A stretch of DNA of 64,000 nucleotides from Pelagicoccus enzymogenes (GTDB taxonomy: Bacteria; Verrucomicrobiota; Verrucomicrobiia; Opitutales; Opitutaceae): positions 620,001-684,000 of the forward strand of contig NZ_JACYFG010000051.1 in assembly GCF_014803405.1 (NCBI RefSeq). The letters are read 5' to 3'. Within the stretch, counting starts at the first letter, position 1; each line of letters begins with the position of its first letter. Of this stretch, positions 6,092-36,923 are shown piece after piece. Under the pieces are notes generated by a model. The model saw only the letters and a program-made list of their open reading frames with translations. It ran no database searches and was not told the origin of the DNA. The position numbers and the translations under genes are program-made.

Positions 6092-6151
6092 GGCCAGGTG
6101 GTTGGTTCTGGTCCGTGACTACTCATTTGCTCGGGTTCGGGTTACCGATTT

Positions 6152-9100
6152 TTATGGGCTGATCCAAAGTTTTACGAAAAAGTTAGGTGGGAGGTCTTTG
6201 AATTGGGCAATGGCCTTCTGGGTTCTTTGTTCAGCCGAACTTGGGAATGGGGCAATTTGCCAGGCCTTCAGGTCTTCAGAAATGACGAGCTCAAACGATT
6301 GTTCGATCTCGTTTACCCAGCTGTACTCGATTCCTGCTTCCGTAAGTTGAAAGCTCAGAGGGGGAACGTTTTGGCCATAGGGAGTCGCCGTCGTAGTGAT
6401 GAGTTCGAATTCTGGTAGCGTGAGACTTCCTTCATCCCATGAAACGGTTACTTGATAGGATCCCGCGTTTTCGGCGTGAACAGAATTAAAGCTCAGGCGG
6501 CTGCTGGTTTCTTGAGGGATAAGGTTACCGTTGTGGGTCCATTGGTAGTTTAGCCCCGGTTTTTCGCTAGCATTGATCGCGAAGGTGAGCGGAAAACCGA
6601 TCGGTACGGACTGGCCTCTTGGCTGATTCTGGATTTTCGGTGGTCCAGATAAGCTGATGAGATGCAGGGAGGATTGGTTCGTTTGAGGGTCGTAAGTGAC
6701 AGTGGCGACTCGTTCGTTGAACAAAGTCCCTGAGAGAGTACGGCTGGAGACTCCATAACTTCTTACAAAGACTCCGTTTTGGTCGAAGCGTTTATTTCTT
6801 ACGATGACGTCTCCATTCGGCAGCGCTCCGAATTGATCACTCGCCGATATCGCATCTATTTGCACCGCGAAGCCTGGGGCAATAGCTCCATTATTTGAGA
6901 GTCTTAGCAATTGAGTTCCTGCTATGAGAAGTCGGTCGCTCCTGTCGATGGCTATGGCCTCGATTTGGCTCAAGCTTGGATCGAGGGTGAAGGAATTGTC
7001 TACTTCTCCGTTGGCATTTACTCTGATCACCGCCGCAGGAGTTTGGTTGAATTGTCGACGGTAGAGGTAGACTCTGCCAAGGCTGTCGCTGGTAACCATG
7101 GTGTAGTTGTTTTGGACTTTCTTTACCCCGTGCTGGTAGTCGGGATCGAGGGTTCCGTCGATGAGGTAGCGGTCAAAGCGAACGGATTCGCCGGAGTTAG
7201 GCTCGATGGAGACCACGAGGAATCCGGTATTTGAATACGGATGATAGATGAGTTTTGGCGGAGATTGATAGATGGTGCCGAGATCTCGGTAACTGACTGG
7301 GTTTCCGACTGGGTCGAGGACGTGTAATTCGTACTCGTAGCCGTAGTTTTCTCCGCGGAGCACAGCGAGGTATCCTTGAGGAAGCGGGCAAAGCGCTTTT
7401 GTCGCGGGTAGAGCGCTTTCTGGCAAGGATGCGAAATATGATGAATCGATGTTTCCGGCGGCATCCAACTTGAGGATCGGTCCTGTTAGGGTTCCGTCGA
7501 CGTGTTCTCCAGTGATAGGAAGGAACAGGTTTTGACCATCGAGAGCGGCGGTAGGTTCACCCAAGTAGGCAGTCTCTAGGCGGACGAGTTTTGTGGGCTC
7601 GGATGGGTTGCTGTCAGAATTAATGAATACAACTCTTTCCTTGGTTCCTTGTGGGTCGGCGAGTCCGTGAAGGGCGAAGGCGTTGTTTTTAAGTCCAACG
7701 ATTTGCCGGTAACTGTGGAGCCCATCGAAGGTTTTCGAGTCGTGAAAATTATTAGTGCCATCGGACTCGACCCAGAAGATGCGAGCGGACTTTGGATCGA
7801 GTTCCGCGTGGGCTATGATGGAGAGGCGAGTGCCATCTGCACTCTTAACAGCAAAGATGTTATTGGTAGGAATGGTCCATCCTGTGATATTGAGATTCCA
7901 GAGCTCCTCGCCCTCGAATGTGCTTCCACTCAGAGTTTGAGCAACAGGGTCGTGCTTGAGTTGAGTACCGTTTGCCCAGATGCCAAGGATTTGAGTAACT
8001 AAGGGAGAGTAGCCGATATCGATGATGTCTGAACCAGGGAGGCTCTTCCCATCGGCTCCGAGGCGGATGAGCCAATGAGTATTGGGCCGGGTGAGTGTAT
8101 AAGTGTCGTCGGCGATCCTCATGCTCAGAGGATGAATAAAGGTCCAGGGAGGCATGCCACCTACGAACTGTTCAATTCTCGGCAGTGGGGTCACCGTGCC
8201 TGAGTTTGATATTTCGAGTGCAGTGCTGCCATCGTCGACCCAGACATTGCCATCTGGCCATTGGCGGAAAGCGATAACAGAATACATGTTGCTATCGAAA
8301 CGGTGAACGCCGAACGCGGTGTCAGGCATTCCTTGAGGGGTGAGGCGGGTGAAGTGGGTGATTGTGTCGCCCGATCCTCCAGGAACAAATTCTGTCAGGA
8401 GAGCGAAATGGGTTCCTGTGAAGGGGCAGAAGTTGAGGCTGTCGTATCCGGCGGGAATGCGATCCTTACTCCAGTCAATTGTCATCTCCCCCTCTTCATT
8501 CACGTAGTCTGTCCTAATCTTGCGGATGGGAGGCAGGGAGTCCTCCAGCGATTGGATGTAGTATCCGCCATTTGGAGAAGGGATGATTGATGAAGCGTAG
8601 AGCGGGCTTTCGCGTCCGACGTCGAATTTCTTTTCGATTTGTGGAACGATGTCATTCACCGAGACGATTGCGGGCTTAGACCATTGGGTTCCGATAGAAT
8701 TTTTTGATCTTAGACGGTAGGTACCGATGTCCTGCAGTCCGATTTCATCGAATTCGAGGACGGGAGTATTGGCGCCCTCGATGGGCAAACCGTCGACGTA
8801 CCATTGGAGCTCTGGGTAGGGTGCTCCGTCAACGCTTGCTTTCAGAATTAGGCTCCCGAAGGAGCTTGCGTCGCTGTCGTGGGGATGAGTGAGGAAATGC
8901 GGAGCTTTGGGCGGTAGTAGGCGAATTGGGTTGCTTGTGATAGTTGTATCTACACTTTGGATACGAATTTGATAGGTGCCTGCATGTGACGCGTCCAAGT
9001 GGTCGAAGTCGAGTTGGGGGGCGTTTGCTCCCGGGATTTCTGTTCCATCTTTTAGCCAGACGATGGAGTCGGGCAAAAAATCGACGATAGTGACCTCGAG

Positions 9101-11272
9101 AGAGACAGGACCTTCAGAGAAGGAAACTCGTTTCTTGAAAGGAGTGGAGAAGCTTGCTGGGGAACGAGTATATCTTGCGGAGGTCGGTAGAGGGCCGATT
9201 GGAGTGAGGGCTGTGCCGGCCAAATAGAGGTCTCCATTTGGTGCTATGTCTACTTCTGTGTTTTTCCATTTAAATCGGTCATCAACTTCGGTGACCACAC
9301 CTTCAGGTGAGACATGCCATAGCCGCTCGCTTCCTGATTCGCTTGGCTGATCTATTTTGTATCCAAATATCACAGTCGAACCGTCATCCGCGTAGCGGTT
9401 TGCGCTTTGGCTAGGCCAGGTATTTGCACTTTGGTAGGGCCGTTCGATGAACTTCTCCGGAGCGTAGTTCTGGTCCAGTTCGCCGTTGATTGAAAATCTA
9501 GCGCCGAGGGGTTTGGCGATTTGGTTATCGCCTATGGTGAGGCTGGGGAAATACAGCCAGTCGCCGACTACCTTCATGAACGCGAGATTTCCGTAGAGGT
9601 TTGGAATCGAGAAGTCCGGGTCTGGAGCTCCCAAGTGAGACATACGACGGACTTCTCTTGGGATATTTGCCCATTTTCCAAGAGTGTAGTAGATATGTTG
9701 TTTCGTGACGCAGAGAATGGCGGTGTCCGGATCGAGGGTGGGGAAGGATTCGTCTACGCTGCCATGAGGGAGGAGTTTGACGACGCCGATCTCCTGTCCC
9801 CATTTGCTTGCTCGCTGCTCGGCAAGCCATTCTCCATTTGGCATTTGAGCCCGGAACCACAATGAAGGGTCGAAGTGAGGTTGGACAGGTAGGCGGGTAC
9901 GGTTTTGGTCGTAGAAAAGGAAGTCGTCGGTAGTGAAAGTGCCGTCGGCTAGCTGAGTAAGCTTGAGGTTGTTGACGGGTTCGAACGATACGCGAATGGT
10001 CCCGTCAATTCGTGCGATGCCGTCTCCCATCAAGAGTTCGCCGCTGTTCGTCCAGCTCGCGGCTTTCGGTTTGCTGATGGAAATTTTGCTTGGGTGGGCT
10101 TCCGCTAGGGTGCCGTTTTCAGAGAGGAAGGCAAAAGCGATTTTCTTGGAATCGGAGCTAGTGCGGCCGGACAGCAGGAGGCCGTTTTGCGTCATGGCTG
10201 CGGAAAAGTAATCGATTGGACCATCATCGGTGAATAATCCGTCCGGATCAAAGTTGAATGCCTCGTCGATCTGGCCGTCTGCTTTCAGTTTTATCACTTG
10301 CGTGAAATCATTTCCGATCTGGTTCCAAGCGCCGGTGACGAAGTAGCCGCCGTCACCAGCAGAGAAGACTTCGCTCTTGTAGTAGACTGAAGCTTGGTTT
10401 GATACGCCGAATGAGCTGTCACGCTTTCCGTCTGCACCAATCTTAGTCGGAAAATATTGGTCGCCGCTTTCGTATAGCAGAAAAATTTCGCCAGTGGGTA
10501 GGCTGCTTATGTGGTATTGGTTGTATTCGAGCTGCTCGTTTCGATAGCCGTAGCGGCTAAATCCCGGGGCAGCTTGGCCGTTTGGCTCCAGCAGCATGAG
10601 GTTTCCGGTCGTCAGAGTAGAGCTGTTGGGGAAGGCGCCGACCGCGAGGATTTTTCCATTCGCAAGGATGTGAACGGCGCGGCAGTAGCCCTCGACTCTG
10701 GGAGCTTTGAAGCTTTCGTCCAAAACGTAGTCTCCCGTTTCGGATCGAACGAGCCTTTGAATCCGGGTGAATTGTTTTCCCGGTTGGCTGGGGTCTGTTT
10801 CCCCGAAGATCTGAAGGAAACGGTTGTCCTTCTGCAGGATGAGACCTTGTTGGTTTGCGATTGTAAGGACCGGCTCGCCGTTTGGGGAGAATTGTATCAC
10901 GGTGTTCCCGTTTAGCCCCAGCTCTGGGGCGACGTTGGTGAAGGAGATGCTTATTGAACCATCGCTGTTGAGTGCGGCTTGATCGGCTTGGGCCTCGAGG
11001 ATTGGAAAACTCAGCGAAAGGGGTTCGAAGTTGCCCTCCGGGCTGAGGATTGCGAGCGAGCCGGAGAATTCTCCGTCGACCGAGTCGAAGCCGCCGACGG
11101 CCAAGTGGGAGCCATCCTCGAGCGCGATAAGTTGCGATGGGATGGCGTCTTGGCGGGACTCGAGTTCAAAGTTCTCGCTGAGTCGGTATGTTTCGGCCAG
11201 GCCCTGGAAGTAGGGAGCCAAGGTGATCAGGCAAATAAGTCTGAACGTCTTTGGGGGGAGAGGGATTCGCAT
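6152..11272 (-). CDS. Giant secreted protein with delta-60-type repeats and Ig-like domains
   Basis: A 1706-residue protein with an N-terminal signal peptide (residues about 5-26, ending GLAETY). Much of it consists of repeats resembling delta-60 or bacterial beta-propeller strands, with recurring phrases such as PNGKILAVGAF, ADGKRDSSFGV and ANGEVDNSF. Two tandem Ig-like domains lie near residues 700-870 (WLKDGTEIPGANAPQLDF and WYVDGLPIEGANTPVLEF, each ending in AGTYQ/GTYR). A third lies near 1550-1630 (YQWTHNGNLIPQ, ENAGSYQVTV). The C-terminal 60 residues resemble those of the next gene and other verrucomicrobial secreted proteins (FELVISEDLKAWQ ... FFVKLW). It is probably extracellular or surface-bound; no catalytic motif was found. 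It starts 23 bp after the RCC1-type gene, suggesting one transcript. Confidence 0.75.
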   Translation of the reverse strand: MRIPLPPKTFRLICLITLAPYFQGLAETYRLSENFELESRQDAIPSQLIALEDGSHLAVGGFDSVDGEFSGSLAILSPEGNFEPLSLSFPILEAQADQAALNSDGSISISFTNVAPELGLNGNTVIQFSPNGEPVLTIANQQGLILQKDNRFLQIFGETDPSQPGKQFTRIQRLVRSETGDYVLDESFKAPRVEGYCRAVHILANGKILAVGAFPNSSTLTTGNLMLLEPNGQAAPGFSRYGYRNEQLEYNQYHISSLPTGEIFLLYESGDQYFPTKIGADGKRDSSFGVSNQASVYYKSEVFSAGDGGYFVTGAWNQIGNDFTQVIKLKADGQIDEAFNFDPDGLFTDDGPIDYFSAAMTQNGLLLSGRTSSDSKKIAFAFLSENGTLAEAHPSKISISKPKAASWTNSGELLMGDGIARIDGTIRVSFEPVNNLKLTQLADGTFTTDDFLFYDQNRTRLPVQPHFDPSLWFRAQMPNGEWLAEQRASKWGQEIGVVKLLPHGSVDESFPTLDPDTAILCVTKQHIYYTLGKWANIPREVRRMSHLGAPDPDFSIPNLYGNLAFMKVVGDWLYFPSLTIGDNQIAKPLGARFSINGELDQNYAPEKFIERPYQSANTWPSQSANRYADDGSTVIFGYKIDQPSESGSERLWHVSPEGVVTEVDDRFKWKNTEVDIAPNGDLYLAGTALTPIGPLPTSARYTRSPASFSTPFKKRVSFSEGPVSLEVTIVDFLPDSIVWLKDGTEIPGANAPQLDFDHLDASHAGTYQIRIQSVDTTITSNPIRLLPPKAPHFLTHPHDSDASSFGSLILKASVDGAPYPELQWYVDGLPIEGANTPVLEFDEIGLQDIGTYRLRSKNSIGTQWSKPAIVSVNDIVPQIEKKFDVGRESPLYASSIIPSPNGGYYIQSLEDSLPPIRKIRTDYVNEEGEMTIDWSKDRIPAGYDSLNFCPFTGTHFALLTEFVPGGSGDTITHFTRLTPQGMPDTAFGVHRFDSNMYSVIAFRQWPDGNVWVDDGSTALEISNSGTVTPLPRIEQFVGGMPPWTFIHPLSMRIADDTYTLTRPNTHWLIRLGADGKSLPGSDIIDIGYSPLVTQILGIWANGTQLKHDPVAQTLSGSTFEGEELWNLNITGWTIPTNNIFAVKSADGTRLSIIAHAELDPKSARIFWVESDGTNNFHDSKTFDGLHSYRQIVGLKNNAFALHGLADPQGTKERVVFINSDSNPSEPTKLVRLETAYLGEPTAALDGQNLFLPITGEHVDGTLTGPILKLDAAGNIDSSYFASLPESALPATKALCPLPQGYLAVLRGENYGYEYELHVLDPVGNPVSYRDLGTIYQSPPKLIYHPYSNTGFLVVSIEPNSGESVRFDRYLIDGTLDPDYQHGVKKVQNNYTMVTSDSLGRVYLYRRQFNQTPAAVIRVNANGEVDNSFTLDPSLSQIEAIAIDRSDRLLIAGTQLLRLSNNGAIAPGFAVQIDAISASDQFGALPNGDVIVRNKRFDQNGVFVRSYGVSSRTLSGTLFNERVATVTYDPQTNQSSLHLISLSGPPKIQNQPRGQSVPIGFPLTFAINASEKPGLNYQWTHNGNLIPQETSSRLSFNSVHAENAGSYQVTVSWDEGSLTLPEFELITTTATPYGQNVPPLSFQLTEAGIEYSWVNEIEQSFELVISEDLKAWQIAPFPSSAEQRTQKAIAQFKDLPPNFFVKLWISP

Positions 11273-11295
11273 GGCGAGGTGGATTGCGGTGCTTC

Positions 11296-14031
11296 TTAGG
11301 GAGTTACGAGTTGAAGGAAGATGGGGATACCTTCCTCATCGTACGGGGAGATGGTTTGGAGCGTTCCCTTGCTGAGCTTCATGGCCTGATAGTTCGGATG
11401 ACGGATCCAGTTTTCGAGATCCCGGCTGAAGCGGACGAAGTAATGTTGACCTTCGGGGACTTGGAAGGAGCAAATTGGCGTTAGGTCTTGCTGGTTGGCG
11501 AGGACGCTGAATTGCGTTTTCAGAGGACCTTGTCCGAGCGGTTTGGCGATGGTAAAGCTTCCGCCGACGGAGATCCAACCGAGTGCGCCGTCGTGATCTT
11601 CATTGATGGGAACGAGGTCATAGAAGTTCCCGAAGGGGATAATATCTCCGTTCGCTCTCAGAGCGTAGCCTCCTGCCCAGTTCAGGCTGATATCGATGAT
11701 GTCGTTCGGACTGGGACCGATCGTCGAGATGAGGCCCCAAGGCTTTACGGTGCCGTCCTCTCGCAAAGCGACTGAGTAATCGAGGGACGCCTCGATGGCG
11801 ACGACTTTTCCGAGTTCGTCATGAATGATCAGCGGTCCGTCTTCGCCCCATTCGGCTACTCGGCCATCTGCGAAAAGTGCAAGGCTACGGCGCTCGCCGC
11901 ATGCGATTGCGACGGCCGGTTCGGGAAGTTGGGGCACTGTGATTTGAGTGCGGGTAAAATCCTCCCAAGCGAGCACCGTGCCGTCCTCCTTTAGGGCCAT
12001 GAAGTGGTCTCCTTGGGCCTTGATTGATATGATGTTTTGCAGGGAGTCGGGGCTTTGCCAGAGGGCGCTATCGAGGCTCCAGATCGAGACTCGCCCATCT
12101 GAATGGAGAGCGTAGTTAATGCCGCTCCCGGCGGCCACGCTCACAACGTCCGTCAAAGTGACCTTCGACTCTAGTGGGCGATCTGACCAAACGAAGGTGG
12201 TTCCATCTTGTTTTAGCGCGAGTATGTGGTTCGAGCCAGCAGCGACTATTGCGACGCCGTTGGCTCCAGGAGGGGAGTCGAGAAGGCTGTGGTTTTGAGG
12301 GCCGTAGCCGAGAAGGCTAACGAGGTCGACGAAACGAATCGTCTCAATGCTGTCAGCGAAGCCGTCAGCAACGCAACGAGCCCTCAGCTGAAAGGATGAT
12401 TCATAGGGAATCGGGTTTTCGTAGATAGGGGAATCGGAACTGGGTTTCGAGCCGTCCAATGTGTAGTGTATCGCTCCCGAGGCGTTAGGGTTCGTGAGGC
12501 TTATTTGGCCGCCACTCGATTGGCTTCGCGAATCGTCGAAATCGGTAGAGGGGGGCAGGAGGATTGGAAGAAAAACGGCTTGAAGGTTTAGTGCTTCGTT
12601 TAGGCGGATATTGAGTGGGTTCTCTGATGATTGCAGATCGCCTTCCCAGCGGTGAAACCCAAATCCTGGGGCGGGGATCGCGACAAGTTTAAGAGTCTCC
12701 GATTCTTGGAAGTTGCTCTTTTGTTTGGAGCGGCGGACATGCCCCCTGCTTGCGTCGAAAGAGAGTGAGAGCTGATGGGGCTGGCTAGCTGCTTCACGCT
12801 GCGCGGCGATGCCGTAGTGCTCGGCATCAATGGCGATGACTTTGTCTAGACGAGAATCAGGTTGGAGAGAGCTGCTGAGAGGCCAACTTACGATGGTACC
12901 ATCCGCACGAAGGCCGAAGCTCGTGTCGTATGAGACCGCTATGTCGACTATGTCAGTCCAGGAACCGACAGCAGCCTTGAATTCGGGCGTCGCGGCATAG
13001 CCACCCCAGCCCAGTACGGTCCCGTCCGCTTTGAGAGCTAGGGAGTGGTTGTTGCCGAAAGCGAAGTCGATGGCTCCTTCAATGCCGCTGGGCAAGGACT
13101 CATCGCGCCAATTACCGCTGCCCCATGCCCTGATACTGCCGTCCTCCAAAATGCCGACGGCGAAAGCATCGTCCGCCACGATGTGAATAAGGTTGGCAAG
13201 GTGTCGTGGAGGTTCGAGCGACCAGTTCCGAGCAGAGCCGCCCCATGCCCTAGCCTTTCCGTCGCGCAAAAGGGCTATGGCGGCATCTTCTGCTGCTACG
13301 ATCGAAACGACGTTATCCAGTCCCTCGGGAGGAGTTATCTTGGAAGTATCCAAATAGTCAGAGTTTCCCCAAGTATTGACTTTACCTGCTTCGCTAAGGG
13401 TAACTAGGAAGTGCGAACCGGCCGCGATTTCAGCCACCTTTCCGAGCCCTGCCGGTGGTTGGGGAGTCCGGTCGAATGTGGTCTGCCTCTGCACTACCGT
13501 TCCATCCGTTTTCAGTGCCAGCACACCGTCCGAAAACGCGGTGACAAGATCGACGTTAGCTTGAAGTGCGGCCGTATCCAGTTCTTGGATAGTGTTCCAA
13601 GCCTCAAGCTCCTCAATCTTCAGAAATCGGGCCTCGGAGACGATGCTCTCCAAGCCGCTGGTACTTTTCGTGATTGCTCGGACTATGGTAGATTTATCTA
13701 AATCGAAAGGTCCGGTATAGGTTTTTCTGCTGCTAGTGACTCCCTCTGTTTCGAGCGTGTAGTGTATCGAGCTCTCGGAGTCGTGAATGCCAAGGCTGAC
13801 TGTCACCGAGTCGTAGAATTTTCCTGAAGAAGGAGAAATTTCAGGTTGCGTCACGACTTCCTGAGCTCGCGAATCAGCCAAGGATATTGAAAACAGAATG
13901 GCTATTTTAGCTAAGTAACCAGCTTGCCGAAGGGCTTGGCGGAATCTGGAACAGCTCGGGGGATTAAGTACTTCCATGATCGTATCAAATACGTACCCAC
14001 GATCCGTTGGTAGATTTACCGAAGATGACAA
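11296..14031 (-). CDS. Secreted RCC1-repeat protein with chitobiase C-terminal-like domains
   Basis: A 911-residue protein. Two CHB_HEX_C-like beta-sandwich modules, SSGKFYDSVTVSLGIHDSES...IHYTLE (about 65-135) and ASGAIHYTLDGSKPSSDSP (about 515-580), precede two blocks of RCC1-type propeller repeats with the typical LKADGTVLGWG, LREDGTVKPWG and LHSDGRVSIW motifs. A Pro-free linker contains a TQA-type segment (FDASRGHVRRS...GFHRWEGDL) typical of bacterial repeat (Big-like) modules. The signal peptide lies at residues 36-57 (IAILFSISLADSRAQE); Met19 (13977) is an equally possible start. The C-terminus (FVRFSRDLENWIRHPN) resembles that of the next gene. It is likely a surface or secreted binding protein of unknown ligand. 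Confidence 0.75.
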   Translation of the reverse strand: MSSSVNLPTDRGYVFDTIMEVLNPPSCSRFRQALRQAGYLAKIAILFSISLADSRAQEVVTQPEISPSSGKFYDSVTVSLGIHDSESSIHYTLETEGVTSSRKTYTGPFDLDKSTIVRAITKSTSGLESIVSEARFLKIEELEAWNTIQELDTAALQANVDLVTAFSDGVLALKTDGTVVQRQTTFDRTPQPPAGLGKVAEIAAGSHFLVTLSEAGKVNTWGNSDYLDTSKITPPEGLDNVVSIVAAEDAAIALLRDGKARAWGGSARNWSLEPPRHLANLIHIVADDAFAVGILEDGSIRAWGSGNWRDESLPSGIEGAIDFAFGNNHSLALKADGTVLGWGGYAATPEFKAAVGSWTDIVDIAVSYDTSFGLRADGTIVSWPLSSSLQPDSRLDKVIAIDAEHYGIAAQREAASQPHQLSLSFDASRGHVRRSKQKSNFQESETLKLVAIPAPGFGFHRWEGDLQSSENPLNIRLNEALNLQAVFLPILLPPSTDFDDSRSQSSGGQISLTNPNASGAIHYTLDGSKPSSDSPIYENPIPYESSFQLRARCVADGFADSIETIRFVDLVSLLGYGPQNHSLLDSPPGANGVAIVAAGSNHILALKQDGTTFVWSDRPLESKVTLTDVVSVAAGSGINYALHSDGRVSIWSLDSALWQSPDSLQNIISIKAQGDHFMALKEDGTVLAWEDFTRTQITVPQLPEPAVAIACGERRSLALFADGRVAEWGEDGPLIIHDELGKVVAIEASLDYSVALREDGTVKPWGLISTIGPSPNDIIDISLNWAGGYALRANGDIIPFGNFYDLVPINEDHDGALGWISVGGSFTIAKPLGQGPLKTQFSVLANQQDLTPICSFQVPEGQHYFVRFSRDLENWIRHPNYQAMKLSKGTLQTISPYDEEGIPIFLQLVTP

Positions 14032-14134
14032 ATCAATTGATGACAGATTGTTCGTTTTTAGACGAACGGATCGTCCGAAATCGTTCGCACCCTAAGAGAC
14101 CACGGACGTTTCGAAGTCTTTGCTCCACCCTCTA

Positions 14135-28115: not shown

Positions 28116-28190
28116 GGCTCTTTTTTGGAAAAGTGGCTGAGGTCTGTAACCTCCGGGCATCGAGCCAGTAACCCCTTCGAAACGAGCAAT

Positions 28191-28763
28191 GTGGACGTAG
28201 CGGAAGACGACAGGCTGATGACGGCGGCAAAGCTGGGGGATCTCGATGGAATTGCGGTTCTGTTCGAGAAGTACCATCAGCCCTTGCTCGGCTTTTTTCG
28301 AAGGTTGAGCGGGCAGGCCCAATTGAGCGAGGACCTGGCTCAGGAGACGTTTTGGAGGATTCTGCGCTACCGAAAAAGCTACGATCCGCGGCGCTCGTTC
28401 AGGGCGTGGATGTACCAGATAGCGAGAAACGTGATGAACGACCATGGAAGGAAGACGACGCGAGCGGGAAGGATCTTTGACGATCGTTCCAGCGAGGAGG
28501 CTGAGTTGCGAGCTCGCTCGGCCAGCGACGTGAGCGGCGAGGTCGAACGCTCGGACCGGGCGGAATTGCTTAGAACGGCTTTGTCGCAGCTACCGCTGGA
28601 AAAGCGGGAAGTGATCGTGCTCTGCCGATTCGAAGAACTGCCGCAAGCTGAGATCGCCCGGATGTTGGGCTGCAGCGTGGGAGCATTGAAGGTGCGCTTG
28701 TTTCGCGCCCTGAAGGACTTGAAAGATGTTTTTGTGGAATTAGGAGGGGAACCGGCGTTATGA
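28191..28763 (+). CDS. RNA polymerase sigma factor, ECF (sigma-70 family)
   Basis: About 190 residues with sigma region 2 (FEKYHQPLLGFFRRLSG, SEDLAQETFWRILRYR, SFRAWMYQIARNVMNDH) and region 4 (LPLEKREVIVLCRFEELPQAEIARMLGCSVGALKVRLFRALKDL). It directs RNA polymerase to a stress or envelope regulon. The start is uncertain: a GTG at 28191 preceded by ACGAG fits the normal ECF length, while a TTG at 28125 would add 22 residues. The stop overlaps the next gene by 4 bp (ATGA), so the sigma factor and the downstream membrane protein are translationally coupled, the usual arrangement for a sigma/anti-sigma pair. Confidence 0.88.
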   Translation: MDVAEDDRLMTAAKLGDLDGIAVLFEKYHQPLLGFFRRLSGQAQLSEDLAQETFWRILRYRKSYDPRRSFRAWMYQIARNVMNDHGRKTTRAGRIFDDRSSEEAELRARSASDVSGEVERSDRAELLRTALSQLPLEKREVIVLCRFEELPQAEIARMLGCSVGALKVRLFRALKDLKDVFVELGGEPAL

Positions 28764-29527
28764 AGGAAGAGGAGATGGAAGCGTTTATCGACCGTTTGCA
28801 GAGCGGCTCGAGGGAAGCACGTTCGCCCGAGGGCATGGACGAAGAGAAGCTGCAAATGGCCGTGCTCTGGGACGAGCTTGCGGACCTAGGGGAGACGCCG
28901 GAGCAAAACCGGGAACTTGTATCCGATTTTCAAGACAAGATTGACGCCTATCGTTCCGGGTGGGACGCCGCCCTGCGTAATGGCAGTTCGGAGCCTCTCG
29001 AGAGAAGAGGAGCTGCATCGTCTTGGAGCGCCTTCTTCCGTTACGGTTTGGTAGCAGGTGTGGCGGCAGCTATGGTCTTCGCCGGGTTCGTCGCTCAGTC
29101 TTTCATGGCACGAACGGATCAGCTGCAGGCGGAGCTGAGGCAAACGCAGGAGACGCTTGCCCTTTCCTTGCTGGAGCAGTCCTCGGCTCCCAAGCGATTG
29201 GCTGGCCTTGCAACAGTATCGAAGATCGACCAACCCAGCTCCCGTTTACGCGAGTCGGTGGTGCGGACTTTCGATAGCGACTCGAATTTGAACGTTCGCC
29301 TCGCTGCGGTGACGGCTTTGCGAGCGCTTCCGCGTGAGGAAGCGCTTGCGGTCCTTTTGGAGCGCATGGAAAGCGAGGGGTCGCCTATCGTGCAGATCGA
29401 GATCCTACGGCAGGTGCTCAATCTGGTGGGGGACGGCTCCGACTCCGTTCTCGTCGAGCGTATCGGAAAAATGAATATGGAACCACGGGTGCGCGCCTTT
29501 TGGGAGGAAAACAATCAGAGTATTTGA
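28760..29527 (+). CDS. Putative anti-sigma factor with one membrane helix and HEAT-like C-terminus
   Basis: A 255-residue protein coupled to the ECF sigma gene by an ATGA overlap. Residues 1-90 are acidic and helical, without a clear zinc-type anti-sigma (HxxxCxxC) motif. One transmembrane segment lies near 92-112 (YGLVAGVAAAMVFAGFVAQSF). Then comes a coiled-coil stretch (RTDQLQAELRQTQETLALSLLEQ). The end has HEAT-repeat character (LRESVVRTFDSDSNLNVRLAAVTALRALPREEALAVLLERM). By position it should tether or inhibit the sigma factor from the inner membrane with the HEAT-like part outside the cytoplasm. That assignment is from context and topology, not from a recognised anti-sigma domain. Confidence 0.65.
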   Translation: MKEEEMEAFIDRLQSGSREARSPEGMDEEKLQMAVLWDELADLGETPEQNRELVSDFQDKIDAYRSGWDAALRNGSSEPLERRGAASSWSAFFRYGLVAGVAAAMVFAGFVAQSFMARTDQLQAELRQTQETLALSLLEQSSAPKRLAGLATVSKIDQPSSRLRESVVRTFDSDSNLNVRLAAVTALRALPREEALAVLLERMESEGSPIVQIEILRQVLNLVGDGSDSVLVERIGKMNMEPRVRAFWEENNQSI

Positions 29528-29530
29528 TAT

Positions 29531-30304
29531 ATGGATGCAAGAAACACATCAAGCATGAGGCTGCGCGTAGCGGCTATGGTTGCGTTGGTCGTAGGTTGGC
29601 TCGGCCTCGAAGCGGAGCCGTTGTGGATTGCGGAACCGGTAACGGTTGTCGATTTGAAGCCCGATTGCGAAGTGCTTTTCATCGCCAGCTTGACTGACGG
29701 CAATATCACGGTGCGAGGAGAGGAGCGAGAGAGCATCGAGCTGACCATCGATCGTTTCGATCCTGAGGACTCGCGACGCAACAAGGCGCGCCTGGATGTC
29801 GATCTCGACCAAGGCTTGGTCAAGCTGAAGCTCTTCGATCAGCTGGAGAAGTCGAACATCGTAGCGGTAGTGCCCACTGGCTCTTTCTTGAGGCTGCGGG
29901 CGGTGGATGGCGACGTGCGCGTGGACGACATTTCTGGGGAGATCGAAGTTAACGCGGTAGACGGAGACGTGCTGCTGCGAGAGGTGAGTGGCGGCATCGT
30001 AGCCAACTCGGTCGACGGGCACGTGAGGGTGGAGTTAACTGACCGGCCGCTCGTCAATCCATTGTCGCTGGCGACGGTGGATGGGGATGTCTTGCTTGTC
30101 GTGGAGCGAGACTTGGACGCAAACTTTTCGGTGTCTACAATCGATGGCAAGTTCGACTGCGACCTCGAGTATCGCTCGCAAGGATCGAGCGGCGGTTGGC
30201 GCAAGTTCGTGGGAGTGAATGTGACGGGGACGATTGGCGATGGCGGTCCACCGATTTCTTTGAAGACGATCGACGGTGACGTGCGGATCAAGGCTCGGGA
30301 TTAG
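29531..30304 (+). CDS. Secreted DUF4097-family protein with VDG repeats
   Basis: A 257-residue exported protein with a signal peptide (residues 9-29). A beta-helix-like domain follows with repeats RAVDGDVRVDD, NAVDGDVLLRE, NSVDGHVRVEL, ATVDGDVLLVV, STIDGKFDCDL and KTIDGDVRIKA. It has the same fold type as the TSGG protein at 5117 but uses VDG or IDG turns. It begins 3 bp after the anti-sigma-like gene and so is the third gene of the sigma operon. DUF4097 proteins are repeatedly found with sigma/anti-sigma modules; this one may be the regulon product or part of the signal-sensing unit at the envelope. Confidence 0.78.
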   Translation: MDARNTSSMRLRVAAMVALVVGWLGLEAEPLWIAEPVTVVDLKPDCEVLFIASLTDGNITVRGEERESIELTIDRFDPEDSRRNKARLDVDLDQGLVKLKLFDQLEKSNIVAVVPTGSFLRLRAVDGDVRVDDISGEIEVNAVDGDVLLREVSGGIVANSVDGHVRVELTDRPLVNPLSLATVDGDVLLVVERDLDANFSVSTIDGKFDCDLEYRSQGSSGGWRKFVGVNVTGTIGDGGPPISLKTIDGDVRIKARD

Positions 30305-30414
30305 AACCTTTCCTTGAGCCTTCCCTTACGCGGGTAGAAGGGATGGAAGTTCCCTTGATTTTTGCTGTCGACAAGTGGTTTCGGAAGGAGCAATGGATTC
30401 GCTTAAAAGACTGT

Positions 30415-31272
30415 ATGGCAAATCGCGTTTTGCCCAGCCCCAGCGAATCGACTGGTTTGCTGGCTCATCTGTTCATCGTGTTGCAGGACTCCAAGCGTAC
30501 CCGCGTGAAGGAGTTGCTGTATAGTGGCCATGTTCATGTGAATGGGCAATCGGTTACGCGGCATGACGTGCAGGTTGGGCCGGGGGATCGGATCGAGGTT
30601 CGAGCGGAGAGGGTGGCGCCGCGGCGTGTTTTGCCTTTTCAGGTTCTCTATGAAGACGGGGCGTTGCTCGTGATCGTGAAGCCAAACGGGCTGCTTACGG
30701 TACCCAGCAAGCACGAGAAGACGCGCAACGTACTGAGCCTGGTGAACGCCGCTTTGAAAGAGACGCGGGAGCGCGCTTACATCGTTCACCGTCTAGACTT
30801 GTACACCTCCGGCGTGCTGGTCTTGGTGAAGAGCGAGACTTACCAGGCGAAGGTGACGAAACATTGGGCGGATGCCAAAAAGCAGTACCATGCCTTGGTC
30901 GAAGGGGTGCCGGAACGCAAGAGTGGTACTTTGACCCATTACTTGAGGGAAGACGAGCGCCTGGTCATGCATGCTCATTCTTCCCAGGTTAAGTCCAGCG
31001 TGAGAGCGAGTTTGAGTTATCGCGTGCTGGATGAACGAGGGTCGCATAGTCTGCTGAGCGTCCAGCTCAAGACCGGTAAGAAAAACCAGATTAGGGCTCA
31101 ATTGGCCGCGATCGGGCATCCGGTAGCGGGAGACGCCAAGTATGGGGCCCAGAGCAATCCCATTGGGCGACTGGCTTTGCATGCATCGAGATTGTGGATA
31201 CCGCATCCCAAGTCCGGAACCATGATGGAATTTCGGGCACCCTTGCCACGGGGCATGGAAGAGCGGACTTAA
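30415..31272 (+). CDS. S4-domain RluA-family pseudouridine synthase
   Basis: A 285-residue protein. Residues 12-60 are an S4 RNA-binding domain (SRKRVKELL-type DSKRTRVKELLYSGHVHVNG), and the rest is the RluA catalytic domain with the active-site Asp in HRLDLYTSG. KTGKKNQIRAQLAAIGHPVAGDAKYG is the conserved second half. Like RluC/RluD it should modify uridines in large-subunit rRNA, but which position is not clear. A longer start at 30343 is possible; the ATG at 30415 gives the family-like beginning just before the S4 domain. It stands alone between the sigma operon and the chemoreceptor gene. Confidence 0.85.
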   Translation: MANRVLPSPSESTGLLAHLFIVLQDSKRTRVKELLYSGHVHVNGQSVTRHDVQVGPGDRIEVRAERVAPRRVLPFQVLYEDGALLVIVKPNGLLTVPSKHEKTRNVLSLVNAALKETRERAYIVHRLDLYTSGVLVLVKSETYQAKVTKHWADAKKQYHALVEGVPERKSGTLTHYLREDERLVMHAHSSQVKSSVRASLSYRVLDERGSHSLLSVQLKTGKKNQIRAQLAAIGHPVAGDAKYGAQSNPIGRLALHASRLWIPHPKSGTMMEFRAPLPRGMEERT

Positions 31273-31589
31273 GCAAAACTGTGTCGGTGAAATAGCGGAC
31301 GGTTTTTGTTGCCGGGGGCGTTCCAATATCCGCTTCAACTAGGGAAGGTAATTGGGACTTAGGATGTTTGTTCTAGTGAGCTTTGAGGAGTTTACCCCGG
31401 TCCTCTTGAGTAGTTCTGTCAAAAGATTGTATGAACGCAGTCGAACTCTCATTTCCATCAAAGCCTTAGACGATGAGTAGGTGAATTAATCCAGCCTATT
31501 GCCTTACCTGGGCGGCTGGAGCCTTCCTCGCTTATCTACGTGTTCCCATCGCTGGCCACCGTACTTCACCCACTCATCTCAGTCACCCA
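31273..31589. other. Intergenic region before the chemoreceptor gene
   Basis: 317 bp without a gene. It contains a possible weak promoter (TTGAGT at 31406, TATGAA at 31430, 18-bp spacer). A bulged hairpin CCAGCC...GGCTGG (31491-31519) has an inner GCC/GGC pair. No known riboswitch or sigma-28 promoter was recognised. Confidence 0.35.
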
Positions 31590-33227
31590 ATGAAACTCAC
31601 TTCGAAAATTCTCCTAGGCGGCACCGTTCTAGTCGGACTTGTTGTCGGTACCTCGCTCGCAGTCATGTATCGGTCAATCGAGAGCCAGGGACTCGACATG
31701 GGGAGGGATCGCATGAAGTCGATCCTGCATCAGGCGGAAGCGGTGAAGGACCACATGTCGGACTTGGTGCGGATGAAGGCGTTTGACCGCGAGAAGCTGG
31801 TAGGCGAATTGCGGCAAGAGAGCGACTATCGAAATACGACTTTTTATCGTACCATTCCAGTTGTCGCTTCGTGGCAGACCATCGAAAGCATTGCGGCGGA
31901 GGAGGGCGTGAGTTTGCGTACGCCGAAGTTCGATGCCCGTAACCCTCGCAATGAGCCAAGCGAGGATGAGGCAAAGATTCTTAGCTACCTAGAGAGCTCG
32001 GGCGCTTCGGAATATTTCGAGAACGACACGGACAACGGGCTGATGGTTTATGCGAGGCCGGTGGTGCTGGAGAAGAGTTGCCTCTATTGTCACGGTGACC
32101 CGAGCACGAGTCCGACCGGCGACGGCAAGGATGTCCTTGGCTTTGCCATGGAGGGATGGAAGGAAGGGGAGGTGCACGGAGCATTTATCCTGAAATCCAG
32201 CACGGAGCCGATTTACGATGCGGTTCTGGCCAGTTTTGGCAACGTATTGATGTGGGTGCTTCCGATGTGTCTGATTTTTGGATACATCGCATTTCGCCTT
32301 CTGCGCACCAAAGTTGTCGCTCCCATCGAGTCGGCGATCTCTGAAATTGCCAACTCTACCCACGCAGCTGTCGGCGCGTCCAAGGAAGTCACGGATTCGA
32401 GCGTGAGCCTTGCGGATGGGGCTTCGCGTCAAGCGTCTGCTCTTGAAGAAACCAATGCTTCTCTGGTGGAGATATCGACTGCGATTCAGGACAACCTTTC
32501 CAATACGAACCAAGCGGTCGAAGTTGCTCAGGAAACGCGCAAGGGAGCGGACAAGGTTTTCGAGCGGATGCAAGAGTTGCGTGGCGCGATGGGAAGCATC
32601 GCGGAATCGGGAGCGGAGATTTCTAACATCATTAAAACGATCGAGGAGATCGCCTTCCAGACCAACATCCTGGCTCTGAACGCAGCGGTGGAAGCGGCGC
32701 GGGCTGGCGAAGCCGGCGCTGGATTTTCGGTGGTTGCGGACGAGGTGCGTCAATTGGCGATGAGAGCTTCTTCAGCTGCCCAGGACTCTGCGTTGCGTAT
32801 CCAGCGTTCGGTGGAAGCGAGCTCGAGAGGCGATAAAATTTCCACGGCGGTAAACTCGGATTTGGAATCGATAACCAAGCAGGTGCACAGCATCGACGAC
32901 TTGCTGGAATCCTTGCAAAAAAGCTCGGCCCGTCAGTCCATGGGCATTGAACAAGTGAGCACAGCGGTGACGGATATCGATCGCGTGACGCAAAGCTCCG
33001 CTTCGAGCAGCGAGGAGCTCGCCTCGGCGGCGGTCGAAATGTCGGGACAGGTTACGACCTTGCAGCGAGCGATCGAGTCGCTGCGAAGCGTCGTGAACGG
33101 AGAGCAAGCGGAGTCGGCTGGCGGCATTGGATCCAAGGTGCAAAGACAGGCCGCAAAGCGTCAGGATTCGACGCCGGATGCGTCTCGTCTGAAGGAAAGG
33201 AGCCCGGAGGCTTCGCTCTGGAATTAG
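31590..33227 (+). CDS. Methyl-accepting chemotaxis protein with DUF3365 c-type haem sensor
   Basis: A 545-residue receptor. It has a first helix (residues 8-28) and a periplasmic DUF3365/Tll0287-like domain (about 30-205) with a haem c motif CLYCH (Cys164, Cys167, His168). A second helix (215-238) and a cytoplasmic signalling domain follow, with the MCP hairpin tip [21 protein letters not shown] near 350-370. The C-terminus lacks a CheR-docking pentapeptide. The covalent haem predicts sensing of redox state or a diatomic gas in the periplasm. It has no HAMP that can be clearly recognised. No che genes lie nearby, so it must work with a chemotaxis system elsewhere. The ATG at 31590 begins the first membrane helix. 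Confidence 0.88.
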
Positions 33228-33254
33228 TCGAAATAGTCCAAGGCGACGTGCGAC

Positions 33255-33782
33255 CTAGAGGCTGGTAAGCTCTTTGAACCGGGTGGCTTGGCGGCGGGAG
33301 ACTTCGATCTCTTGGCTGTCGGTGAGCGTAAGTTTCAGGCCACCGGAGAACCATGGCTCAATGTCTCGGATGGCGTTGAGATTGACGATTTGTTGGCGGT
33401 TTGCCCCGGAAGAATATGCTGGGGTCGAGCCTTGATTCCAGTTGGTTGAGCGATTTTGGGATCATGGGCTTTTGATCCGAAAAGTGGATACGGGTGTAGC
33501 TTCCTTCGACCTCGAAGAGTCTTATGTCGATGAGCTTTACGAACCAGCAACGATCGCCGTCCTTTACGAATACTTGGGAATCGGAAGCAAGGGGTTGGGT
33601 CGATTTGTTCTTTGAGTCGCTGGTGTCGGCAGGCCAAGTGGACGCGAGCTTGCCGATTGCGCTTGCTCTGCGGTTTCAGCTTCTCCGAGAGGCTCGATGT
33701 TGGGGAATGCTTCGAGGAGATGGGCGAGCTCTCTTCTGGCGAGACGGGAATCTTCGATGATGAGAGCTCGCATGGAAAGCAT
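33255..33782 (-). pseudogene. Broken LytTR-type response regulator
   Basis: The first 43 codons read as the start of a receiver domain (MRALIIEDSRLARRELAHLL). The frame then jumps directly into a linker and LytTR DNA-binding domain in another frame (VFVKDGDRCWFVKLIDIRLF, EGSYTRIHF, PKSLNQLESRLDPSIFF). A further 1-bp shift at a C4 run (33404-33407, G4 in the coding strand) is needed to reach the end (ANRQQIVNLNAIRDI ... QATRFKELTSL). The middle of the receiver, including the phospho-acceptor Asp, is deleted. One large internal deletion plus frameshifts make it non-functional. It starts 8 bp after the DUF1080 stop codon. It was almost certainly the partner of the broken kinase at 34602. Confidence 0.85.
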
Positions 33783-33789
33783 GCCTCGC

Positions 33790-34605
33790 TTACCAGCTTT
33801 TCTTCAAGCCGGGATGGACTGTGCGGTTTTGAATCTCGTCACCGTCAAGCTCGCGTATCCAAATATTGCGATACGAAACGAAGTGTTGATGATCTTGCAG
33901 GGAGAGGGGAAGCTTCTCGGCGTGGGCTGTGTACTCAGGGAAGCCGATCCATTGGGTGGGGCCGTAGAGTACGGCGTCGTATTGCACGAGCACCCCGTTG
34001 AGGATGGCTGTCATGCGGGCTGGGGACTTGAGGGAGCCGTCCTCGTGGAAGCGAGGCGCGATGAATATCACGTCGTACGTTTGCCACTCGCCCGGCTTGC
34101 GAGCGGGATTGGCGAGTGGTGGGTATTGCTTGTAGATTGAACCGAGCTGTCCGTTGACGTAGGTCTCGTTCTGGTAGGAGTCGAGGACCTGAATCTCGTA
34201 ACGTCCCATGAAGAAGATGCCAGAGTTGCCGCGGTCTTGGCCGTCGTGTCCTTCGATGTCGGTGGGGGAGCGGAACTCCAAGTGCAGTTGGACGTCGCCA
34301 AAGGCTTGTTTCGTATGGATGCCGGATGCGGGTTTTTGAGGTATGACTGTGAAGGCGCCGTCTTCGATCTTCCAAGGCTTGGCCTCCGGATTGTCCAGCT
34401 CCCACGCGTCGAGGTTGGAACCGTCGAATAGCACGATGGCGTCCGACGGAATACCGGAATGGGTGTCGACGATCTCTGGCTTAGGCTCCCATTGCTCGGA
34501 CTTTTGCGATTGTTCGTAGCGCGTGAGTCCCTCGTCTTGAGCGGAACAGGAAGCGGCGAGCGCGAGAGCGAGTGTGGCGATTTGGGGAAGGGGGCTTTTA
34601 ATCAT
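33790..34605 (-). CDS. DUF1080 (3-keto-disaccharide hydrolase-like) secreted protein
   Basis: A 271-residue protein with an N-terminal signal sequence (residues 5-22, ending AASCSAQDE; Cys20 might be lipidated, though the lipobox is imperfect). A concanavalin-like DUF1080 domain follows (IVLFDGSNLDAWE, GDVQLHLEFRSP, RGNSGIFFMGRYEIQVLDSYQNETY, WQTYDVIFIAPRF). DUF1080 proteins are abundant in Planctomycetota and Verrucomicrobiota and act in glycan or keto-sugar hydrolysis, or simply bind carbohydrate. The gene is intact, yet its ATG overlaps the stop of the broken histidine kinase (ATGA) and the broken response regulator follows 7 bp later. It is therefore the only functional member left in that operon. 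Confidence 0.82.
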   Translation of the reverse strand: MIKSPLPQIATLALALAASCSAQDEGLTRYEQSQKSEQWEPKPEIVDTHSGIPSDAIVLFDGSNLDAWELDNPEAKPWKIEDGAFTVIPQKPASGIHTKQAFGDVQLHLEFRSPTDIEGHDGQDRGNSGIFFMGRYEIQVLDSYQNETYVNGQLGSIYKQYPPLANPARKPGEWQTYDVIFIAPRFHEDGSLKSPARMTAILNGVLVQYDAVLYGPTQWIGFPEYTAHAEKLPLSLQDHQHFVSYRNIWIRELDGDEIQNRTVHPGLKKSW

Positions 34606-35549
34606 AAAAGTGGAGTTGCAGCATTGACCGTGCTTTTCAAGCCATTTGAGCGATCTGCCCTAGGGATGCGAATGCGGGAGATGACGTGGGTTTTGTTTTG
34701 CTCGAGAGTGAGCTCCGCTTGAGGTCCGCAGAGAAGTTGCAGGCGATCGCGGATGTTCTTCAGTCCGACCCCGGTAGAGGAGGGATCTGAGGGGGCGCGG
34801 GCGCTAGGGTTGCGCACGTCTATGTGGAGCAAGCCGTGGCGCTCGTAGATGGCGATGTCGACGCTCCCTCCCTGCGGGCGTTTGGAAAGGCTGTGCTTGA
34901 TGGCGTTCTCTGCCAGGAGCTGGATGGCCATGGGAGGGATTTGGCAGTCGTCTAGCTCGGGGGTCGAATCGATGGAGTAGGCGAGCCGGCTCTCCATGTG
35001 GATGCTCTCGAGGTCAAGGTAGTCGCGTACGGTTTCGGGTTCCTGAGCGATGGAAATCGTCTCCGCGTCTTTCACGGCAGCCTGCAGGCGCCATTTTTCG
35101 ATTTCTTCGGACTTGTAGTTGCGGATAGCTTGATAGCTGAAGTAGGCCATGGACCAGAGCATGAGGATGATCTGGGTCTGAAAGATGTAGATCAGCAGGA
35201 AGAATGGGCTGTACGGCCGTTCTTCCGAAAAGAGGTCGAAGGGCCAGAACATGATCAGCGACACCATCAGCTAGCTGAGCGTCGAAATGAGCAAGGTCGC
35301 GGCGGCGAGCCGGAGGATCAGCTTGCCGAAGGAGAGCCGCGCCCACCCAGCCTTGAGCGAGTGGTTGCGAAGCAGGTGGGTTAACAGGAATAGGATAGCC
35401 GCTCCGGAGTAGGCGACGCCCGCGGTGCTGCTAGCTGGAATATCTGGAATGAAACCGCGGTTCGAGATGTATCCGATCGTTCCATACACGCCCCAGGCAA
35501 AAGTCTGGAGGAGTCAGTAGCTCAGTTTCGGCTTAGGAAGAGGGGGCAT
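34602..35549 (-). pseudogene. Broken LytS-type sensor histidine kinase
   Basis: The reading frame from the ATG at 35549 (MPPLPKPKLSY) is interrupted by two in-frame stops. One is TGA after codon 11, where Trp is expected (SY*LLQTFAWGVYG). The other is TAG at 35271 (TLLISTLS*LMVSL). The remaining sequence encodes membrane helices and a LytS-type kinase core (YLDLESIHMESRLAYSID, AIQLLAENAIKHSLSKRP, GVGLKNIRDRLQLL). At about 35050, AETISIAQEPETVRDY joins sequence before and after the His-box: the segment with the phospho-acceptor His (normally NPHFIFN) is deleted. ATP-binding motifs survive. Nonsense changes plus loss of the catalytic His show long-standing inactivation. Confidence 0.85.
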
Positions 35550-35563
35550 GGGCGGGACTTGCC

Positions 35564-35704
35564 TCAGTCGTGGCAGTTCTGGGATGGGCGGTTAAAGAGA
35601 AGGATGCAAACGATGATGGGAGCGATGAAGCCACCGAAAGGTTTTTCCATCAAGAAAGCGATCGGAAGAAGAAGGCAAAGGACTAGAATCGGCAGGTGTT
35701 TCAT
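35564..35704 (-). CDS. Small membrane protein, 46 residues
   Basis: An ATG at 35704 opens a 46-codon frame (MKHLPILVLCLLLPIAFLM ... FIAPIIVCILLF) ending at a TGA 14 bp before the start of the broken kinase. Two hydrophobic stretches suggest a hairpin membrane protein. It reads as the first gene of the decayed LytS/LytTR operon. Similar small hydrophobic proteins preceding such kinases have no known function. No homologue is recognised; the case rests on hydrophobic pattern, spacing and strand. It could also be chance coding. Confidence 0.45.
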   Translation of the reverse strand: MKHLPILVLCLLLPIAFLMEKPFGGFIAPIIVCILLFNRPSQNCHD

Positions 35705-35772
35705 GTTGTTGCGGATCCAAGGTTTAGGGAATCGACTTGCAGCAACCTGAGTTGCTTGCAGCGTGGAGGGCT

Positions 35773-36363
35773 ATGTTGCTGCGAGTGTTTTGGATGTGTC
35801 TGGCGATAGCCTGTTTCTCGTTTGAAGGCCGAGCGGACGGTTTGCCTGATGGGCGATACCTTCCGCGCCGCCCCGGAGAGCCGCCTTCCTACCAAAGGTA
35901 CCAGCAGCAGGGCAGCTCCTCTCAGCAGCAGCAGTACGCGAGGCCGCAGCCCGCGCCGCAGGCGTACCAATATGCTCCTGCTGTCCGCCCCCAGCCAACG
36001 GTTCGCTCCTATTCGCAAGTCCCTCGGCAGCAGGTTCAAGCCTCTTCGTCTGGAACCGTGCCGCGAAGCCAGCGTTTCGCGCCTACCCGTCCGGGCGCGA
36101 AGCGGGGCGCCTTTGCTCCCAAGGAAAAGATCTCCACGCGCTCCGTTAGGGCTGCCTACAGCCTGTACAAGGGGTATCATTCGATTCAGCAAGCGACCGC
36201 GAAAGCTCAGGCTCGAACGGTTGAAGGCGTATTTGTGGAAGCCGTCGAGGACACGACTAGCCCGCCGACCATGGCTAAAATAATTACGTATCCGATCAAG
36301 CTGGTGGCCAACGTAGTTGTGGAAGTGGTACGCACGGTGGCGGTGGACTGGTGGAAATATTGA
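35773..36363 (+). CDS. Secreted Pro/Gln/Ser-rich low-complexity protein
   Basis: A 196-residue protein from the ATG at 35773, which gives a clean signal peptide (MLLRVFWMCLAIACFSFEGRA). The mature N-terminal half is low complexity (YQRYQQQGSSSQQQQYARPQ, PAPQAYQYAPAV), with many Gln, Pro, Ser and Tyr. The C-terminal half (KEKISTRSVRAAYSLYKGYH, TYPIKLVANVVVEVVRTVAV) is amphipathic or hydrophobic and could associate with membrane. No family is recognised. It is divergent from the small ORF and kinase remnant, and is followed by an alpha/beta hydrolase remnant on the opposite strand. Confidence 0.55.
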   Translation: MLLRVFWMCLAIACFSFEGRADGLPDGRYLPRRPGEPPSYQRYQQQGSSSQQQQYARPQPAPQAYQYAPAVRPQPTVRSYSQVPRQQVQASSSGTVPRSQRFAPTRPGAKRGAFAPKEKISTRSVRAAYSLYKGYHSIQQATAKAQARTVEGVFVEAVEDTTSPPTMAKIITYPIKLVANVVVEVVRTVAVDWWKY

Positions 36364-36379: not shown

Positions 36380-36800
36380 TTGGTCCAGCAGCGTATCCAG
36401 TTCTTGGTAAAAGAACTCGGGATCGTCCTACATGATGAAGTGCTTTCCCTTCTCGCTCATGACGAGTCGGTAGTTCGGGTGCTTCTGGTATTGTTGGTGG
36501 AAGGTCGCGTCGACGCTCTCTTGGGTGGCTCCGAATTGGGAATACCCATACCATGCTCCGATTACGGTGGTTGGTGTAGAGATTTTGGATACGGATTCCC
36601 TCAGGTTGACGGTGTTGAGTTCGTACATGGCTTGGGCTACGGTGGGCGCATGGCTGGAAGCGGACATGGCTAGGGCGCACTCGATATTGTCGGGAGAGGT
36701 GACCATCATGCTCAGCATTTGGCGGAGCTGGGCATCGTTTTGGGAGCCTTGCCTCATCATTTCGCGTTGGGCAGCAGCTTGGGTTTTCGTACTCTCGACT
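36380..36800 (-). pseudogene. Remnant of an alpha/beta hydrolase gene
   Basis: Only the C-terminal part of the fold is recognisable: REMMRQGSQNDAQLRQML, MVTSPDNIECALAMSASSH, ISTPTTVIGAWYGYSQFG and YRLVMSEKGKHFIM, in which the His is the catalytic His. An in-frame TAG at 36428 interrupts the sequence just after it (FIM*DDPEFFYQELDTLL), where related enzymes have Tyr. The N-terminal half with the nucleophile Ser is absent; only frame-shifted debris lies upstream. A lesion at both ends argues for a decayed gene rather than a short functional one. Confidence 0.7.
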
Positions 36801-36923
36801 GTACAGTGCGTCGAGCAGGCCGTTTTGGGCGAACGGTCGCAAAGGGGGGGCGAGCGGTAGTCGTTGCACTGTCGGGGACGATTGGGCTGGCTTGTTTCGA
36901 GCCTTTGAGCAGAAGAGCAAAGG

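Follow-up and report, generated by a model that had tools for sequence, protein, structure and literature searches.

YehU, of the YehUT system of Salmonella, is a PF06580 kinase, and by Pfam the ancestral genes of the two-component pair described here are of the same LytS/LytTR type. For S. Typhi, one study describes yehUT as accumulating non-synonymous changes through adaptive or relaxed evolution (PMC3875573). The present pair differs from YehUT in having knock-out lesions in each of its partners and a PF06439 gene lying between them. In myxobacteria, indels and frameshifts have been reported to remove two-component genes within a genus, the differences originating mainly from gene loss, and this is the same kind of lineage-specific pseudogene formation (PMC4603909). 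In contrast to the myxobacterial losses, two genomes that lack a functional pair still keep the intervening enzyme gene here.

The enzyme gene encodes a DUF1080 protein of the 3-keto-disaccharide hydrolase family (PF06439). Like the 3-ketoglycoside hydrolases BT2157 and CCNA_01705, it carries a single PF06439 domain according to Pfam; BT2157 has been described as hydrolyzing 3-ketotrehalose, and fitness data led to the proposal that CCNA_01705 hydrolyzes 3'-ketolactose (PMC9007349). A limited literature search returned no paper linking a 3-keto-disaccharide hydrolase with Verrucomicrobi.

Here, a stretch of 64,000 nucleotides from Pelagicoccus enzymogenes (the window), part of a 6.2-Mb genome (G000), was compared with the congeneric genomes G001, G003, G004, G006 and G007, the last being Verrucomicrobiae bacterium DG1235, and with G011, G013, G023 and G027 from other genera. 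Neighbouring genes were compared at the loci of eight relatives, out of the kinase-bearing loci found in 21 genomes. They are labeled by their Pfam matches (sigma-70, PseudoU_synth_2, here called Rlu, LysE, MFS, Penicillinase_R or BlaI, Peptidase_M56, LysR, DUF4097, MCP), the label HEAT-like resting on a match below the cut-off. The locus is a clean case of signaling-gene decay by an ordinary mechanism, well supported by the relatives. It catches a two-component pair in the course of dying, with the enzyme of the operon surviving, and the congeners show the unbroken and the erased state. We are highly confident that the pair was broken by ordinary pseudogene formation, the enzyme gene being kept; the pair would have become dispensable in this lineage beforehand.

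The LytS-type histidine kinase (PF06580) pseudogene occupies positions 34602..35549 of the complementary strand and was aligned to its orthologues at L017:7992-9065 (G007), L018:8226-9293 (G004) and L020, where a contig end cuts the gene. The start codon ATG is retained at 35549. Two in-frame stops and a deletion of the His box had been claimed in the first-pass annotation, and all three lesions can be read directly: a TGG codon has become TGA at 35516-35514, a CAG codon has become TAG at 35273-35271, and 52 codons (156 nt) are missing in frame at a junction around 35065/35064, as placed by codon alignment with G003. The absent segment includes KAQINPHFIFNCLNNIRALVLED in this alignment and takes out ELIALKAQINPHFIFNCLNNIRALVLEDSEKARDAITKLSELLRRSMRSNQV as read in G003, which is the His-box region, leaving the remnant without the NPHFxFN box of PF06580. 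No uninterrupted frame spans the membrane and ATPase parts, because of the TGA and TAG codons. A Pfam search with the remaining 221-aa open reading frame gave no His_kinase match, and the orthologue of G007 matches this family at 7.2e-26. At the 3' end the frame runs beyond the stop positions of the relatives, and the tail differs in every relative. The kinase of the window is a relic of the PF06580 family and no working member.

The LytTR-type response regulator pseudogene (33255..33773, complementary strand) retains its ATG at 33773 and its stop at 33257-33255. It measures 519 nt in comparison to 720-747 nt in G003, G004 and G007, and its orthologues at L017:6211-6957, L018:6535-7359 and L127:941-1723 are unbroken. 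The alignment stays in frame to about residue 38, up to a small deletion near 33659, after which 80 nt stand against 282-309 nt in the relatives. The stretches LFLDIQMPG, FTTAYDQ and LQKPI, all present in the relatives, are gone; they contain the Asp, Thr and Lys positions of the receiver. This bears out the earlier reading that the regulator has lost the receiver center with its Asp and has undergone frame changes. The LytTR part contains one extra base near 33406, and in the genome search PF04397 is matched twice, at positions 2-50 and 52-96, in different frames. The 72-aa open reading frame that remains from the regulator has no Pfam match, the G007 orthologue scoring highly for both Response_reg and LytTR, and a tree of the LytTR remnant gave no resolved placement. 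The further claim that the phosphotransfer residues were removed by precise deletions is not supported: the kinase has a clean, in-frame deletion, but the losses in the regulator are ragged, and a nearby hydrolase gene outside the pair has suffered similar damage (see below).

One might suppose that the remnants act as a new, truncated regulator, in which the 221-aa product, with membrane and ATPase parts and no His box, works together with the regulator peptides. This reading draws on the open frame from 35267 (34602-35267), which retains PPMAIQLLAENAIKHSL, and on a kinase divergence that does not exceed that of intact kinases. With the His box and the receiver center gone, the LytTR part in two pieces and both the 221-aa and the 72-aa frames without Pfam match, we consider it highly improbable. 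The loss of a working pair remains the preferred reading, and no close copy that could compensate for it was found elsewhere in G000. Its only further PF06580 gene and its single unbroken LytTR gene lie on contig C2 and are only distantly alike (24% identity, E 1.1e-4, and 32% identity, E 2.1e-12, respectively).

Between the two relics, the DUF1080 gene (33790..34605, complementary strand, 271 aa) is intact, as had been noted before: the frame is open and matches PF06439 at 8.2e-43 and 147.1 bits, covering positions 2-187 of the 187 of the profile. By eye a putative signal peptide is present, and PDB entry 4qhz is a relative at 1.4e-66. Its dN/dS of about 0.10 against G007 shows, as judged from substitutions, purifying selection on the enzyme gene, which stayed intact in this way while its neighbors decayed. 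The enzyme would still be expressed and would act as a periplasmic 3-ketoglycoside hydrolase. A promoter scan of 33200-35900 did not find a sigma-70-like site.

The TGA at which the kinase frame of the window ends overlaps the ATG of the DUF1080 gene (ATGA). The first-pass annotation described this as an overlap that still exists; the overlap itself is there, but it is not a conserved trait. In all three relatives in which the junction is readable, a gap separates the genes, of 45 nt in G003, 34 nt in G004 and 142 nt in G007 when the ATG starts are taken. These gaps rule out that ATGA represents a retained translational coupling, and because of them it most likely arose as a side effect of the decay.

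The comparison with related genomes, by which the first-pass annotation proposed to judge its reading, yields the intact pair with DUF1080 between the genes in three congeners. The order kinase-DUF1080-regulator is found with all genes unbroken in G007 (L017) and G004 (L018). In G003 a contig end splits the operon: the kinase lies on C73, open and with its 3' end cut off, and C76 starts with what appear to be the last kinase codons and stop, followed by DUF1080, the unbroken regulator and a convergent gene for a methyl-accepting chemotaxis protein (MCP). Pieces of the intact genes of these three genomes can be aligned to the window on either side of each lesion, at about 49-82% identity.

At five of the eight loci compared (G006, G011, G013, G023 and G027), the kinase gene directly adjoins the regulator gene, and the stretch has no DUF1080 match. 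Therefore, DUF1080 is most simply seen as a later insertion between an older adjacent pair, and the operon kinase-DUF1080-LytTR would have originated in this direction. In G002 and G005 neither a kinase match nor a close regulator match was found; the sole DUF1080 of G002 resembles a distant second copy of G000, and none was found in G005 at 1e-40.

The convergent neighbor in the window is an intact MCP gene (31590..33227, forward strand; PF00015, PF11845), and its counterpart in G003 (L127:1734-3371, 78% identity) also adjoins the unbroken regulator. In G004, G006 and G007 the regulator is adjoined by the sigma factor, HEAT-like and DUF4097 genes, which in the window are found within 28125-33227; in the window and in G003, the Rlu and MCP genes lie between these and the regulator.

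Decay is regional and includes a nearby hydrolase outside the signaling pair. Of this alpha/beta hydrolase (36386..36910, complementary strand), open in G004 (L018:10127-10990), G003, G006 and G007, about residues 117-287 of 287 are left (around 170), the N-terminal portion that carries GHSLGG is missing, and a TGG codon has become TAG at 36430-36428. For a decay map, the longest non-overlapping open reading frames of at least 120 aa from the G001, G003, G004 and G007 stretches were placed onto 104 kb around the window. This gave 122 matches at 74 loci, a list that may contain further shadow frames, with parts of the 104 kb having no counterpart in the compared stretches; 14 matches looked broken. 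At five of the 74 loci, each relative that was mapped there indicated a broken gene, but two of these loci are shadow frames over open genes. Widespread decay of the 104 kb is thereby ruled out, and of about 72 loci only those of the kinase, the regulator and the hydrolase are clearly broken. The chance of finding three broken genes within five consecutive ones of 72 is about 0.007.

Substitutions were used to judge the age of the decay. Over alignable codons, the remnants have a ratio of dN on the window branch to that of G003 of 1.13 (0.86-1.51), the neighboring MFS and LysE genes one of 0.96 (0.74-1.28), and the excess of amino-acid change in the remnants, 0.015 (-0.022 to 0.047), is not significant. 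Among changes unique to the window, the nonsynonymous to synonymous count is 21:17 in the kinase vs. 11:30 in DUF1080 (p 0.012). For kinase and LytTR together it is 28:27 and does not differ from the 47:50 of MFS and LysE (p 0.87); within the kinase, the window count of 21:17 compares with 18:34 unique to G003 (p 0.057). Of 93 kinase sites that do not vary among four relatives, seven are changed in the window, two of these being the nonsense codons. This does not exceed what intact kinases show at comparable sites: 3 of 89 (G003), 7 of 93 (G004), 10 of 96 (G007) and 45 of 131 (G006). Since the remnants show no measurable excess of substitutions, the decay is either recent or not yet measurable. 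Nonsense mutations, deletions and frame changes would thus have disrupted the pair, along with the nearby hydrolase, at a fairly recent time. The low divergence fits such recent decay, but would equally be expected from assembly faults.

Indeed, the lesions could stem from errors of sequencing or assembly, in which case the operon would be intact in the organism. G000 is a draft of 60 contigs, and the remnants are not significantly more diverged than intact genes, as such a reading would have it. Nevertheless, an in-frame deletion of 156 nt, a regulator that is shorter by about 200-230 nt net, a third gene without its first part and three nonsense substitutions are untypical of errors. Furthermore, the lesions are confined to three nearby genes, the other loci of the 104 kb being open against at least one relative or shadow frames. 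We regard errors as a very unlikely explanation.

A second genome without the pair is G001. The rpoB protein tree gave no resolution within the genus, and rpoB DNA was used instead. Here the support is good for only two inner branches, and G001 is the sister of the window genome (94.4% identity, support 100/99). The DUF1080 gene of G001 is intact (PF06439 at 2.4e-40) and lies between Rlu and BlaI/M56; the pair is absent beside it, and the whole G001 genome has neither a PF06580 nor a LytTR match at E 0.001. Upstream of DUF1080, 38 nt still match the stop codon of the G004 kinase and the spacer that follows it (E 2.4e-4), which would be a small but fitting trace of the lost kinase. Together with the unbroken operons of G007, G004 and G003, this supports the main claim of the first-pass annotation, namely inactivation of the pair with the enzyme kept: the pair is unbroken in three genomes, dying in one and gone in one, and DUF1080 is intact in all five.

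What is missing from G001 extends beyond the pair. Ten window genes (sigma factor, HEAT-like, DUF4097, MCP, regulator, kinase, the gene at 35737-36363, hydrolase, LysE and MFS) were not found in 19 kb around its DUF1080; a 26% match to the regulator within that stretch falls in another gene. For the HEAT-like and the MFS protein, a search of the entire G001 genome likewise gave no match, at 1e-6 and 1e-20, respectively. Retention of DUF1080 is not unique there, since Rlu was also retained, which weighs against the decay explanation. Between LysR and BlaI of G001 (L126:8369-10872), Rlu and DUF1080 are the sole genes found of the stretch.

With the pair gone and DUF1080 intact in G001, there were either two separate losses with the same result or a single one that proceeded in two stages. 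In the latter case, the pair would already have been dead in the common ancestor of G000 and G001, one inactivation being completed later by deletion in G001. The sister position in rpoB DNA and the lack of a working copy in both genomes would suit such a history. However, dS between G000 and G001 is 1.03-1.28 in the neighboring genes M56, Rlu and LysR, values near saturation, and 0.26 in rpoB; two further gene pairs (17139 and 45942), with dN near or above 1 that probably resulted from cutting on the wrong strand, were left out. An unconstrained remnant dating from this divergence should far exceed the upper bound of 0.047 on excess amino-acid change. A single ancestral loss thus appears unlikely. 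Because the remnants show little excess change while dS between the two genomes is large, the pair was probably lost separately in G001, and two independent events are favored.

The trees of the operon genes disagree. The DUF1080 of the window is 86% identical to the copy of DG1235, whereas its identity to the G001, G003 and G004 copies is about 65-70%. In the DUF1080 tree, window and G007 are joined (100/98, and 99/97 in a second tree) apart from these three, and a grouping of the window with G001 is rejected (p 2e-9). In the kinase tree the window joins G003 (96/97), and a grouping with G007 is rejected (p 0.006). The differing DUF1080, kinase and rpoB trees indicate that genes of one operon have different histories. 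As the simplest account, an old exchange of the DUF1080 allele is suggested by this conflict; differential loss of old duplicates is an alternative.

Taken further, a PF06439 gene that entered the operon between kinase and regulator, passed as an allele from species to species and outlived both regulators in at least two lineages could point to repeated adaptive shedding of regulation around a single conserved gene, a proposal we hold to be unlikely. If it were true, the enzyme would have been freed from signal control. If the losses were independent, the genus would represent a natural experiment that asks if a PF06439 enzyme performs equally well, or even better, without its regulators.

Elsewhere in the window, about 8 kb at roughly 6100-14100 have no counterpart in the compared stretches of G004 and G003, with matches resuming on both sides, and may represent a possible insertion.
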